Below the pieces are notes generated by a model. It saw only the letters and a program-made list of their open reading frames with translations, made no database searches and was not told where the DNA came from. Source: Bacillota bacterium (GTDB lineage Bacteria; Bacillota; Dethiobacteria; Dethiobacterales; Dethiobacteraceae). From it: DNA of 56,001 nucleotides. Within the stretch, counting starts at the first letter, position 1. Every line of letters starts with the position of its first letter. Below are positions 18,281-46,482 of the stretch, piece by piece. The stretch is taken from the NCBI GenBank assembly GCA_018725565.1, contig QLUR01000016.1, forward strand, positions 1-56,001, in the 5' to 3' direction. The position numbers and the translations under genes were made by a program.

Positions 18281-19121
18281 AGCAGCCGACTACCTGAAAG
18301 AAGAAACAGCCTGGTGCCCAGGCTGCGGGAATTTTGCCATCCGTCAGGCGCTGGCCGAAGCGCTGGCCGAGCTTTGCCTGCCGCCGCACCGGGTGCTGAT
18401 GTGTTCTGGCATCGGCCAAGCCGCGAAAATGCCGCACTACATCCGCGTCAGCGGCTTTAACGGCCTGCACGGCCGCGCCCTGCCGCCGGCCACAGGCGCC
18501 CGTGTCGCCAACACCAGCCTGACCGTTATCGTTGAATCAGGTGACGGCGACAGCTATGGCGAAGGCGGCAACCATTTCATCCATACCGTCCGGCGCAACC
18601 CGCATCTGGCCCACTTCGTGCATAACAACCAGGTTTACGGGCTGACCAAAGGGCAGGCCAGCCCGACCAGCGAACTGGGCATGAAGACAGGCGTACAGAC
18701 CGGAGGCGTCATTTCACCCCCGCTCAATCCGCTGGCCCTGGCCCTGATCATGGGAGCCGGTTTTGTGGCAAGGTGTTTCTCCGGAGAAAAAGAACACCTG
18801 AAAGAAACAATGAAAGCCGCCCTTGTCTTCCCCGGCTACGCCTTGGTCGACATCCTGCAGCCCTGCGTTACTTTTAATAAATTAAACACCTATGCCTGGT
18901 ACAAAACACGCGTTTACCCGGCGGAGGGACATAACACCAGCGACTGGATGGCTGCCCTGTCACTCTCCCGCCAGTGGGGCGAGCAGATACCGCTCGGCAT
19001 CTTTTACAGCGTTCCGCGACCGACCTTTGAATCTCAGCTGCCCGCCCTGGAAGGCGAACCGCTGGCGCTGCGTCCCTTCAGCCCGCTGGATGTCGCCCGC
19101 GCCCAGGACGAATTCCGCTGA
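18273..19121 (+). CDS. 2-oxoacid:ferredoxin oxidoreductase beta subunit (KorB-like)
   Basis: This is the thiamine-diphosphate-binding subunit that partners the preceding gene. The 282 residues include the CPGCG motif (15-19), of which one cysteine usually ligates the Fe-S cluster. The ThDP/Mg signature is SGDGDSYGEGGNHF, followed by HNNQVYGLTKGQASPTS. The length is normal for KorB-type beta subunits and the frame is intact. The 73-bp segment 18921-18993 near the 3' end is repeated 1.3 kb downstream (20207-20279), so recombination has occurred beside this gene, yet its C-terminus (PLDVARAQDEFR) looks complete. Confidence 0.93.
   Translation: MCKAADYLKEETAWCPGCGNFAIRQALAEALAELCLPPHRVLMCSGIGQAAKMPHYIRVSGFNGLHGRALPPATGARVANTSLTVIVESGDGDSYGEGGNHFIHTVRRNPHLAHFVHNNQVYGLTKGQASPTSELGMKTGVQTGGVISPPLNPLALALIMGAGFVARCFSGEKEHLKETMKAALVFPGYALVDILQPCVTFNKLNTYAWYKTRVYPAEGHNTSDWMAALSLSRQWGEQIPLGIFYSVPRPTFESQLPALEGEPLALRPFSPLDVARAQDEFR
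18921..18993 (+). repeat. 73-bp direct repeat, parental copy inside the beta-subunit gene
   Basis: Positions 18921-18993 match 20207-20279 at 72 of 73 positions; the one difference is G at 18927 versus A at 20213. Homology stops sharply at both ends. Here the segment is in frame within the oxidoreductase, so this is the source copy. The second copy is out of context. Confidence 0.95.
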
Positions 19122-19136
19122 AGAAAATTGACCTGA

Positions 19137-19556
19137 TTACTGTTCGATATAGCGGACAATATCCCGTATAAAACTATAATAGTCGTTCAGGTGCTCCTGC
19201 AGTATCCTGTAAACCTCCCGGTTGTCCACGTCATCGTACATATGCACAATCCGGTTCCGAAAACGGGCCATAGCCACATAGGTTGCCTGCATTTCTCTGT
19301 TGAGGATACCATGTTTGCAGAGAATGATGAAAGAGTCGGCATTCCTTTTCGGAATTTCAAAAGAATGACGCGCAATAATGTGATTCGCTATGTCAAGCAT
19401 TGCTTCCACTGCGATTTGTAAATTATGTCTGGCTGTATCCGTCAGTTTATAATCACAAAGAAATTCATCTTCCCTGCTCTTTTTCAATTCCTCCAGCTTT
19501 TCCAGACATGTTTTGATTGCTCTCAGTTTATTGCGGATTTTTTCATGATTAACCAT
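19137..19556 (-). CDS. hepT: HepT-family (DUF86) RNase toxin
   Basis: The 139-residue helical HEPN protein carries the RX4HXY active-site motif exactly: R100, H105 and Y107 in RNRIVHMY. HepT toxins are HEPN domains neutralised by a MntA-type nucleotidyltransferase; in characterised pairs, MntA AMPylates the tyrosine of this motif. The gene overlaps the upstream nucleotidyltransferase gene by one base (TAATG), as in known mntA-hepT operons. It converges on the oxidoreductase beta gene with a 15-bp gap. Confidence 0.88.
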   Translation of the reverse strand: MVNHEKIRNKLRAIKTCLEKLEELKKSREDEFLCDYKLTDTARHNLQIAVEAMLDIANHIIARHSFEIPKRNADSFIILCKHGILNREMQATYVAMARFRNRIVHMYDDVDNREVYRILQEHLNDYYSFIRDIVRYIEQ

Positions 19557-19978
19557 TAGAGATAATCCTCCCGTAATTTTTCATCAAAGTCTGCATCAAT
19601 TTGTCTCAGACGGTAACCAAAATCACCGTAATGGTTGATGGTTGCCTCAACATAGTCCGCTGTCAGCAGGCGATCCCGTTCAAAAACAACACGCCCTGTT
19701 GAGAGAGCCCTATGCGCAATATTTACAGAAGCATTGCGCAAAATAACCACATCCACATCATCCCTGTCAAGCAATAAAGACAGGTCAGCCGCCATTATTA
19801 ACTCTTTCATCAGTGGGATTTCGTTCTTCAGCAAAACAGCTATATCTATATCGCTTAGCACATGTTCCTGATCCGTGCCGAAAGAACCGAACAACAAGAC
19901 AAGCAGCACATCATCCCTTGTGCTGAAATACGAATGCAACATATTTATGGTTTCAGCATGTTTGTTTTTGTCCTTCAC
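19556..19978 (-). CDS. mntA: MntA-type minimal nucleotidyltransferase antitoxin
   Basis: This is the antitoxin partner of HepT. From the GTG start at 19978 the protein is 140 residues. It contains the complete GSX10DXD signature: G31-S32, then D43 and D45 (GSFGTDQEHVLSDIDIAVLL). This marks an active minimal nucleotidyltransferase. The expected third acidic position follows in DRDDVDVVIL. The GTG start is favoured by a GGGGAT motif upstream; the open frame runs to 20218, through sequence that looks like mobile-element debris, and an ATG at 20053 is also possible. The pair is plausibly addictive and may stabilise the surrounding island. Confidence 0.85.
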   Translation of the reverse strand: MKDKNKHAETINMLHSYFSTRDDVLLVLLFGSFGTDQEHVLSDIDIAVLLKNEIPLMKELIMAADLSLLLDRDDVDVVILRNASVNIAHRALSTGRVVFERDRLLTADYVEATINHYGDFGYRLRQIDADFDEKLREDYL

Positions 19979-20100
19979 GCCAACACATCCCCATACATTT
20001 TCTTTATTGTACCGTTTAATTCGCCTTTTCACAAGCTTTGCCAGTAATGCCATGCCCAAAATTTTGTGCTGGTTTTCACTCGTTAATTTGGCAGCATAGT

Positions 20101-20210
20101 TTAATATAGAAAACCTGGTAACCATGAAAAACGGCAAGACGGTAAAAAAGACGGTGTATGAGAAGCAAGTTGTGTTCTGGGCAAAGAAGTACGCGGATAA
20201 GCAAGAGCGG
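20101..20210 (+). pseudogene. Transposase fragment (IS1634/IS4-like), inferred
   Basis: On the plus strand an open stretch, readable from about 20101 with an ATG at 20124, encodes a segment containing KTVYEKQVVFWAKKYADKQ. I recognise this as resembling the conserved core of IS1634/IS4-type transposases, from family memory rather than a search. It has no start signal or full domain and stops abruptly where the 73-bp copy of the neighbouring oxidoreductase gene begins (20207). The simplest reading is a remnant of an insertion sequence left after recombination. Confidence 0.45.
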
Positions 20211-20279
20211 AGAGACATAACACCAGCGACTGGATGGCTGCCCTGTCACTCTCCCGCCAGTGGGGCGAGCAGATACCGC
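20207..20279 (+). repeat. 73-bp direct repeat, displaced copy of oxidoreductase beta-gene sequence
   Basis: This copy matches 18921-18993 with one mismatch. It is joined on the left to the transposase-like fragment and on the right to unrelated AT-richer sequence, and it is not part of a sensible protein here. It lies in the same orientation as the source. Recombination between the copies would delete the toxin-antitoxin pair and fuse the end of the beta-subunit gene to this region. Confidence 0.95.
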
Positions 20280-20443: not shown

Positions 20444-20533
20444 TTGATAAGACGTAAGAAAAAATGGAAAAAACCTCAACTGATCGATGTTACCGGCAAG
20501 TTAATGGCCCAGCCGTTCATTAGGTTTACCTAA
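20444..20533 (+). CDS. Candidate RiPP precursor peptide, 29 residues
   Basis: Seen: a TTG start at 20444 preceded by AAGGAG with a 10-base spacer, then 29 codons to TAA at 20531. An in-frame stop lies just upstream. The peptide has a basic N-terminus (IRRKKK) followed by WKKPQLIDV (residues 8-16) and a C-terminal part, TGKLMAQPFIRFT. Known: leaders that bind PqqD-like recognition elements, including lasso and PqqA-type leaders, often carry an aromatic-x-x-P-x-L pattern, which this matches as W-x-x-P-x-L. Context: eight bases later starts a PqqD-like gene, then a radical SAM gene. I infer this is the substrate, with leader at residues 1-17 and core at about 18-29. There is no Cys, so sactipeptide-type thioethers are unlikely. 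C-C or ether links at Lys, Gln, Phe or Arg, or decarboxylation, would be candidates. Confidence 0.62.
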   Translation: MIRRKKKWKKPQLIDVTGKLMAQPFIRFT

Positions 20534-20541
20534 GCGCAAAG

Positions 20542-20790
20542 ATGAAAATTCTCCCGCAGATTAAAATCAGGGAAGAGCAGTTCGGGTTGCTTCTCTTCGA
20601 TAAAGAAAGGGAAAAGTTTTTTATCACCGATGAGGTAGGGAAAAATGTTTTGGCGGCGATAGAAAGCACAACGAGTATAGATGAAGCGGCTGAACAGCTG
20701 AGCCTGCAATATGAAGCGACAAGTGAAGTGATAAAACAGGATGTAATCTGTTTTGTTGAAGAAATGATCCAAGCGGGGATAATGCGCTAG
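20542..20790 (+). CDS. PqqD-like peptide-recognition (RRE) protein
   Basis: The 82-residue protein resembles PqqD/MftB-type RiPP recognition elements: a beta-rich start (LPQIKIREEQFGLLLFDKEREKFFITDEVGKNVLAAI) then helices (TSIDEAAEQLSLQYEATSE, KQDVICFVEEMIQAGIM). Known members bind the leader of a precursor and hand it to a radical SAM enzyme. It starts at ATG 20542 with only a weak ribosome binding site, so coupling to the small upstream frame is likely. It is followed by the radical SAM gene 38 bp later. The family assignment is from pattern and context; I am fairly sure of the fold, less of the exact subfamily. Confidence 0.82.
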   Translation: MKILPQIKIREEQFGLLLFDKEREKFFITDEVGKNVLAAIESTTSIDEAAEQLSLQYEATSEVIKQDVICFVEEMIQAGIMR

Positions 20791-20828
20791 TTTCCGTATA
20801 ATACAGCCCGTCCGGGTTAGGCAGGTTG

Positions 20829-21803
20829 ATGGAGGAAATGGACAGGGAGCTCCGGGATATTACTTTATCAGATTTAAGGTCACCCCTTTTTTTCGCTTGG
20901 CACATGACCAACAAATGCAATTTACGCTGCATCCATTGCCTTTGGGAATCGGGGCCCGATGCCTCATGGCCCGGTGAGCTTGTTGAAGCGGAGGCGCTGT
21001 TAGTTTGCCGGCAGCTTATTGATTTTCAGATACCGTATGTGGCCTTTTCCGGAGGGGAACCGCTGCTTCATCCGGCCTTTTGGCCGGTTTGTGAGTTGCT
21101 TGCAGAAAAGGGCATCGAGGTGAAAATAGAGAGTAACGGTCAGCTCGTAGACGATGACACCGCTAAAAGACTCGCCTCTTTAAATCTGCGCTCAATTCAA
21201 ATCAGTATTGACGGCACAACCCAGGATGCTTATTCCAAAATGCGGCCTGGCGCACAGTTGGCGCAAGCCCTGGAGGCTGTAACAAAGCTGGTTAAGCGCG
21301 GCGTATCCACAGAAATAGTCTATGTTCCTGCCAAATTCAATTTCTATGAAGCGGAAAAGCTCATCGATCTGGCCGTAGAGCTAAAAGTCAAAGCCTTCTA
21401 TACCGGGAAAACTATGTTTATCGGGAGAGCGGTTAAAAACTGGGACCTTCTAGGCTTAGAAGAAGAAGAGAACGAAAAACTGAGCCGTCTTCTGGAAAAA
21501 AAAGCAGCAGAATATCAAGATAAGATGACCATTCTCTATTATCCATATAGCGTTACGGACGAATTAAATTACCGCTTAAAACATCCCGCCGCCAGTTTGC
21601 TGTTGATGGCCAATGGCAAGGTCAAATTAATCGGCTCAATGCCTTTCGTTTGTGGAGATGTCAGGAAACATAACTTAACCGAAATCTGGCAGCGTTATAT
21701 CAAAGCATGGGCTCACCCGGAAGTAATTGAATATGCGAATTCGACGCTGGAAACACCGGCTCTTCTTGCCGGAGCCAACGATTTTGTCGAGTTACATCTT
21801 TGA
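20829..21803 (+). CDS. Radical SAM enzyme with degenerate SPASM-like C-terminus
   Basis: Seen: the CxxxCxxC motif binds the catalytic 4Fe-4S cluster (C30, C34, C37 in TNKCNLRCIHC). It is followed by the glycine-rich SAM motif FSGGEPLLHP and a TIM-barrel pattern (VKIESNGQLV, IQISIDG). The C-terminal part keeps the SPASM-type phrase CGDVRKHNLTEIW but has only this one cysteine there, so the auxiliary clusters of a full SPASM domain seem absent or reduced. Length is about 324 residues. Known: PqqE and MftC modify peptides presented by PqqD-like partners. Inference: it modifies the 29-residue peptide encoded upstream. The last base of the next gene's start overlaps its stop (TTGA). Confidence 0.88.
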   Translation: MEEMDRELRDITLSDLRSPLFFAWHMTNKCNLRCIHCLWESGPDASWPGELVEAEALLVCRQLIDFQIPYVAFSGGEPLLHPAFWPVCELLAEKGIEVKIESNGQLVDDDTAKRLASLNLRSIQISIDGTTQDAYSKMRPGAQLAQALEAVTKLVKRGVSTEIVYVPAKFNFYEAEKLIDLAVELKVKAFYTGKTMFIGRAVKNWDLLGLEEEENEKLSRLLEKKAAEYQDKMTILYYPYSVTDELNYRLKHPAASLLLMANGKVKLIGSMPFVCGDVRKHNLTEIWQRYIKAWAHPEVIEYANSTLETPALLAGANDFVELHL

Positions 21804-22669
21804 ACCCGGCTCATTTTCGCCTTCTGCATCTAGTCAGATACCGCTTTTTCCTCTTTGCCGGTTCTCTGCCCTATATCCTAGGGGCTGCGACCGCATTTTA
21901 TGACGCAGCAATTTTCAATCTTCACTTATTCTTTGTGGGGTTCCTGGCTTTAAGCCTCGCTTTTGCCGGAGTAGAGATATTTAACGAATATTTTGAGCCG
22001 GAAGACAGGGTGTTTTACAAAGGTCTTGCCCATCAGCCTCGCTTAAGCATTTGGTTGGGTGCAGGCTGCTTTGCTTTAGCTTTGTCTATTGCCGTTTACC
22101 TGTCTTTTAAAAGCGGGGCTTTGATTATTATTCTTGCTGTCATGGGGTTTCTGATCGCGTATTTCTATGTTGGTCATCCTTTAAGGCTGATATATAAAGG
22201 GCTGGGTGAAGCGGCAATTTTCCTGGCTTATGGCCCGTTGATGGTTTTGGGGAGTCACTTTTTGCATAGTCAGAAGGTGACTCCTGCCGCTGTCTTTGCT
22301 TCCTTCATTCCCGGCACCTTAATTTTCTCGCTGGCAATATTAAATGAGATAGTTGACTACTATCAGGACCTATTGGCGGGTAAAAGAAATATATTGTTTA
22401 GAATAGGCAAGAAAAAGGGCGCCGCTTTATTCATGATTGCTCACCTTTTCGCATATCTCCTCGTTATCATCGGCGCGTCTCTGGACATACTCCCCCGCTA
22501 TTCCCTACTGGCTCTAATTGGCTTGCCGGCGGCTTTAAAAGGAGTCGTGTCGCTAGGTCAACATTATGATGAACCGGTGAAACTGATCGGCACAGTAAAC
22601 AATACTATTTTCAGCTATATAACAGTCAACGGCGTCCTTGTTATCAGTCTAATCTTCGCGGCTGACTGA
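21800..22669 (+). CDS. UbiA-family prenyltransferase (MenA-like)
   Basis: The 289-residue integral membrane protein has about eight or nine hydrophobic helices. The first Asp-rich-type motif appears as FNEYFEPEDRVF (N62), with Glu replacing the usual second-position Asp. The second is complete: N182-x3-D186-x3-D190 followed by AGKR (LNEIVDYYQDLLAGKR). The loop phrase YFYVGHPLRLIYKGLGE is also typical. UbiA enzymes transfer polyprenyl groups to aromatic or quinone acceptors. The start is TTG 21800, overlapping the radical SAM stop by four bases, so the two are translationally coupled. Presence in a peptide-modification cassette is unusual. Alternatives are ordinary quinone synthesis (MenA), for which no other men or ubi genes are nearby. 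Confidence 0.85.
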   Translation: MNPAHFRLLHLVRYRFFLFAGSLPYILGAATAFYDAAIFNLHLFFVGFLALSLAFAGVEIFNEYFEPEDRVFYKGLAHQPRLSIWLGAGCFALALSIAVYLSFKSGALIIILAVMGFLIAYFYVGHPLRLIYKGLGEAAIFLAYGPLMVLGSHFLHSQKVTPAAVFASFIPGTLIFSLAILNEIVDYYQDLLAGKRNILFRIGKKKGAALFMIAHLFAYLLVIIGASLDILPRYSLLALIGLPAALKGVVSLGQHYDEPVKLIGTVNNTIFSYITVNGVLVISLIFAAD

Positions 22670-46357: not shown

Positions 46358-46458
46358 CTCTTATCTCCCGGGGCAGCCCCCAGCTGGAGTTGGCACCGTG
46401 ACATATAGTCCGGTTGCCGGGTTTCATCGGGCCAGTCCCTCCACCTCTCTGGATAAGA
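46358..46458 (-). ncRNA. SAM-I (S-box) riboswitch aptamer
   Basis: On the minus strand, P1 is CTCTTATCC (46450-46458) paired with AGATAAGAG (46358-46366). Between them lie the S-box consensus blocks: AGAGNGGTGGAGGGACTGGC, then CCGATGAAACCCGGCAACC, then CACGGTGCCAACTCC. The aptamer is followed by a terminator hairpin and metK. SAM binding stabilises P1, allows the terminator to form, and switches off metK. Confidence 0.95.
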
Positions 46459-46482
46459 GTATGCGGTTGTGTTTACAGCTAA

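Follow-up and report, generated by a model that had tools for sequence, protein, structure and literature searches.

Discrete PqqD-like RiPP recognition elements (RREs) are employed by the paeninodin-type lasso and LPP systems (PadeA/B1, PbaA/B1, and LppA/B), whose leaders carry a [W/Y]xxPx[L/V] motif. Two discrete RREs have been solved together with their leaders, in which [Y/W]xxPx[L/V] fills two pockets, and residue F83 of PbaB1 splits the leader-binding cleft (Popov et al. 2026, PMC13381572). Tryglysin (WgkABC) and similar cassettes consist of a short peptide, a discrete RRE, and a radical SAM maturase, and mycofactocin (MftABC) and PQQ (PqqADE) likewise rely on a small peptide, a PqqD/MftB-like chaperone, and a radical SAM enzyme from the same broad family. 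Side-chain prenylation of RiPPs is known on Ser, Thr, His, Arg, Tyr, and Trp (PMC12715784). MenA-type prenyltransferases of the UbiA family are characterized by acidic motifs 1 and 2. The prenyltransferases of cyanobactin and lanthipeptide pathways are soluble barrel-type proteins, and we know of no point at which RiPP pathways and the lipid-quinone enzymes of the UbiA superfamily meet.

In the window analyzed here, a stretch of 56,001 nucleotides from a Bacillota bacterium (contig QLUR01000016.1), four consecutive genes encode a precursor peptide, an RRE, a radical SAM enzyme, and a UbiA-superfamily prenyltransferase. We rate this locus as an RRE/radical SAM RiPP cassette whose tailoring enzyme belongs to a superfamily not expected there, and we somewhat favor the reading that it is a horizontally acquired, RRE-guided cassette whose peptide would be modified by the radical SAM enzyme and then prenylated by UbiA. 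If UbiA does prenylate an encoded peptide, it would constitute a new peptide prenyltransferase class and open a previously unknown way of making membrane-anchored small molecules, requiring just four genes and easily tested in the laboratory. The initial annotation knew of no description of this combination, and a literature search, with most subscription journals outside its scope, likewise returned no report combining UbiA, RiPP, and radical SAM.

With the paeninodin-type lasso and LPP systems, the cassette shares the discrete RRE, the leader motif, and pocket residues, but it has no leader peptidase, macrolactam cyclase, kinase, or exporter, possessing instead a radical SAM enzyme, a UbiA protein, and a core of about eight residues. 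The WgkC model of tryglysin matches its RRE (E 3.5e-7), whereas the core has no WGK, the radical SAM enzyme lacks SPASM cysteines and reaches a score of 72 where the cut-off is 650, and UbiA is added. Relative to mycofactocin and PQQ, the peptide termini differ, SPASM clusters and downstream mft or pqq genes are absent, and UbiA is again an addition; the radical SAM enzyme scores 107.6 bits with the MftC model (cut-off 265) and 56 bits with PqqE (cut-off 381), the MftB model gives 22 bits against a cut-off of 33, and no MftA match was found. The UbiA protein carries both acidic motifs of MenA-type enzymes, motif 1 in altered form, but differs in its shortened first loop, in its link to a peptide, and in residing in a genome where the DHNA pathway was not found. 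Prenylation of a RiPP would be shared with the cyanobactin and lanthipeptide prenyltransferases, which, unlike the cassette enzyme, are not integral membrane UbiA proteins.

Gene layout and coding constraint

An open-reading-frame check located all four frames on a single strand, and the plus-strand row of genes recorded in the initial annotation was borne out by its coordinates and by Pfam matches above curated cut-offs (PqqD 39 bits, Radical_SAM 83 bits, UbiA 50 bits). The 29-aa precursor peptide, (L/M)IRRKKKWKKPQLIDVTGKLMAQPFIRFT, is encoded at 20444..20533 from a TTG start with AAGGAG ten bases upstream. It is followed by the discrete PqqD-like RRE (82 aa, 20542..20790; PF05402, 39.4 bits), the radical SAM enzyme (325 aa, 20826..21803), which carries the CxxxCxxC motif (C31, C35, C38) and may start at ATG 20838 rather than TTG 20826, and the UbiA-superfamily membrane prenyltransferase (289 aa, 21800..22669; PF01040, 50.3 bits). 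The intergenic gaps measure 8 and 35 bases, and the UbiA start falls inside the radical SAM stop, the two genes overlapping by a common TTGA. The cassette contains no leader peptidase, exporter, cyclase, transporter, or immunity gene.

About 85,000 species genomes were scanned by a pattern-based method that reaches close relatives only; with the radical SAM protein as query, it returned a single close relative, L008, from a MAG recorded as Dehalococcoides mccartyi. The 16S of this MAG matches Thermomicrobium best, at 76.8%, among plasmid records only, a match that does not by itself place the cassette contig in that genome. L008 holds the same four genes in identical order, with identities of 60% (PqqD-like), 70% (radical SAM), and 57% (UbiA), and at the equivalent place encodes the peptide MQKKEWKKPKLIDVTGKIMAQPFIRFT, preceded by AAGGAGG. 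Because the order and the peptide are kept in a second genome whose flanks differ from those in the window, the view that the four genes form one unit is supported. The cassette is known from these two copies, both in MAGs, and searches of the genome groups around L008 yielded nothing beyond L008 itself.

Conservation within the cassette is highest in the peptide, with 22 of 27 residues identical between the copies, 20 of the 22 C-terminal residues identical, and the last eight, AQPFIRFT, invariant. Ten of the last 22 codons differ, eight silently and two with a change of residue; over the whole peptide, pN is 0.084, the lowest among the four genes, against a pS of 0.74, with synonymous divergence so near saturation that dN/dS is merely indicative. 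Since L008 carries its own version at the equivalent place and the changes are mostly silent, the peptide is, on this comparison, a real gene under purifying selection, in line with its listing as a gene in the initial annotation. The same coding constraint rejects a chance frame or an RNA leader. Neither Pfam nor the curated models gave a family match for the peptide, and a PDB search with it found no match. Its leader bears the motif W8-x2-P11-x-L13, Tyr is missing from both copies, and the core is free of Tyr, Trp, and Cys, the usual acceptors of radical SAM modification and aromatic prenylation. In both copies, as expected of a RiPP, a conserved precursor gene adjoins modifying enzymes.

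Predicted leader recognition and the radical SAM enzyme

When the PqqD-like profile was compared with the PDB, the top entries were leader-binding RREs (9x8z, 9x90, 6jx3, and 5v1u; E 0.012-0.41, each weak alone), comprising both RREs of PMC13381572 and two other lasso RREs. Pocket residues are matched in both copies by Tyr57 (PbaB1 Y69), Leu53, Val32, Val36, Phe71 (F83), and Asp67 (LppB D70), and the PbaB1 residues L41, V71, and E75 find no match. At the sequence level, the PF05402 score above cut-off, the pocket residues, and the WxxPxL motif mark the protein as an RRE, and its predicted binding of the peptide leader is well supported. Leader and protein together resemble lasso-type recognition elements more closely than those of PQQ or mycofactocin.

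Beyond CxxxCxxC, the only cysteines of the radical SAM enzyme are C61, C89, and C276, all three shared by both copies, with C276 alone in the C-terminal region; it therefore has no SPASM or twitch set of cysteines for auxiliary clusters. As it resembles the NirJ2 and GeoRSP models as far as residue 290, a degenerate SPASM region is suggested. A class-wide search returned only two weak relatives of this enzyme (E 1e-34 to 1e-36). Of the two next nearest radical SAM genes in the class, one has as its neighbor a PqqD-like gene that scores under the cut-off at 19.9 bits; the second (L017 600-2701, minus strand) lies beside a 271-aa gene without a Pfam match, a 59-aa peptide frame with a leader-like start (YKTPIL), and a second radical SAM-like protein. 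The two neighborhoods hint at a peptide-maturase group. The L017 region itself looks like a separate RiPP locus, and a short contig from one member of the family (L018 315-3117, minus strand), with PqqD-like, radical SAM, and ABC-transporter-like genes, is a possible RiPP locus. Structure predictions from two-sequence alignments were too poor for use, with a pLDDT of 51 for the radical SAM enzyme and 48 for UbiA.

Proposed prenylation and competing readings

Binding, two reactions in a fixed order, and a prenyl acceptor make up the pathway that we infer from the gene unit, the coding constraint, the leader and pocket match, and the family assignments, all read from the sequence. The PqqD-like protein would capture the 29-aa peptide by its WxxPxL segment, so that the radical SAM enzyme, presented with the C-terminal part, could modify the invariant AQPFIRFT region. 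UbiA would then move a polyprenyl chain from its diphosphate onto the modified peptide, with Thr, Arg, a modified Phe, or the C-terminal carboxylate as candidate acceptors; UbiA enzymes are known to prenylate arenes, hydroxyls, and carboxylates. A product prenylated by UbiA would consequently be held in the membrane. A house-keeping or signaling role may be preferred over an antibiotic one, because the core is invariant in two hosts and the cassette carries neither exporter or transporter nor immunity gene, two copies being thin evidence for such a role.

The UbiA protein keeps motif 2 (DxxxD, in NE(I)xDYYQD), while motif 1 reads NExxE..D; its catalytic activity is not certain, because the first Asp-rich loop of the protein is shortened by about ten residues compared with relatives from the class. 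It is the only UbiA detected in its genome. In most members of the family, one or two UbiA proteins of another type occur, in contexts that appear unrelated by eye. Retention of UbiA with the other three genes in both copies and the overlap of its start with the radical SAM stop support a single pathway, as does a genome in which neither another UbiA nor MenB nor a convincing MqnA/D was detected. Prenylation of the peptide may fairly be proposed. Against this pathway weigh the small number of copies, the lack of a leader peptidase or exporter in the cassette, the core without the usual acceptor residues, the shortened UbiA loop, and the absence, among the papers searched, of any report of a UbiA acting on a RiPP together with a radical SAM enzyme.

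A possible, if doubtful, alternative is that the peptide serves as a scaffold, as in PQQ and mycofactocin, with the radical SAM enzyme remodeling a few residues, proteases excising a small molecule, and UbiA prenylating that excised piece, the product being a membrane redox carrier or quinone-like lipid. The short invariant peptide with its RRE and radical SAM enzyme would suit such a scheme, as would a UbiA closest to aromatic MenA-type enzymes in a genome with no quinone pathway otherwise detected. However, the peptide offers no Tyr, the radical SAM enzyme scores well short of the cut-offs for PqqE and MftC, and no further tailoring or protease genes are present in the cassette. Nothing points to a redox cofactor like PQQ, with which the initial annotation compared the cassette. 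Only tentatively might the peptide, acted on by the RRE and the SPASM-less radical SAM enzyme, supply a headgroup for UbiA to prenylate and so, in a Bacillota lineage where menaquinone synthesis is not detectable, yield a membrane cofactor or lipid of peptide origin.

It is unlikely that the cassette merely joins two neighboring functions, peptide maturation carried out by the RRE with the radical SAM enzyme, alongside a UbiA making an unrelated lipid. Other UbiA genes of the class do sit beside unrelated genes, such as SpeD-like and aspartate kinase-like ones, but these lone proteins, although the nearest kin of the cassette UbiA, share only 23-34% identity with it, and the cassette gene is retained in both copies despite differing flanks and overlaps the radical SAM gene.

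That UbiA is MenA and the cassette serves menaquinone supply is very improbable. MenA models are indeed its best curated matches, but at 84-89 bits it reaches about a third of their cut-offs (225-277 bits). A profile search that detected its controls found no MenB over cut-off in the cassette genome or in 13 others, and MqnA/D matches in the cassette genome are marginal, the better one lying in a 443-aa two-domain protein read as another protein. Because no menaquinone route through MenB or MqnA/D was found, the cassette UbiA is unlikely to be MenA, and a menaquinone role is largely refuted; the initial annotation had named membership of an unrelated menaquinone pathway as the case against its proposal, and this was not seen. 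Among family members, most have a MenA-like UbiA near a SpeD-like gene (L045, L046, L047, and L050), yet in most of these neither MenB nor MqnA/D was found over cut-off.

A lasso-peptide or bacteriocin cluster that has lost its other genes is a scarcely credible reading of the cassette: the lasso-like leader motif and the RRE fit, but neither genome has a B2 leader peptidase (PF13471) over cut-off, the cassette holds no transporter and no gene of cyclase size, and decay is contradicted because both copies hold the same four genes.

Distribution and genomic setting

Neither 19 genomes of the same family, nor the remainder of the class (97 other genomes in total), nor about 397 further genomes of the phylum contain the cassette; a second, smaller phylum sample apparently consists mostly of the same genomes again. 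The conserved synteny sought by the initial annotation therefore stands only between the window and L008, across unlike flanks, and its absence from the family, class, and phylum samples makes horizontal spread of the unit probable. Close relatives were found neither on plasmids nor in viruses, and the peptide as a tblastn query had no match among plasmids.

The contig carries rpoB, rpoC, secA, and ftsEX and is therefore chromosomal; the PDB entries closest to its RpoB are ones that we take to be Bacillota polymerases. Directly upstream of the cassette lies a toxin-antitoxin pair of a HepT-like RNase and an MNT-type nucleotidyltransferase (19137-20218, minus strand). This pair is flanked by a 73-bp direct repeat of 99% identity, the original at 18921-18993 in the 3' part of a ferredoxin oxidoreductase beta-subunit gene and the partial copy at 20207-20279 (plus strand), just upstream of the cassette, which is likely an insertion scar. 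Given this partial duplication, the HepT/MNT neighbor, and a G+C content of 45.7% against 54% for the window, the cassette, a stretch of low GC inserted in the chromosome of a Bacillota bacterium, was probably acquired. Elsewhere in the window, a SAM riboswitch (RF00162, 87 bits) occupies 46358-46459 on the minus strand.
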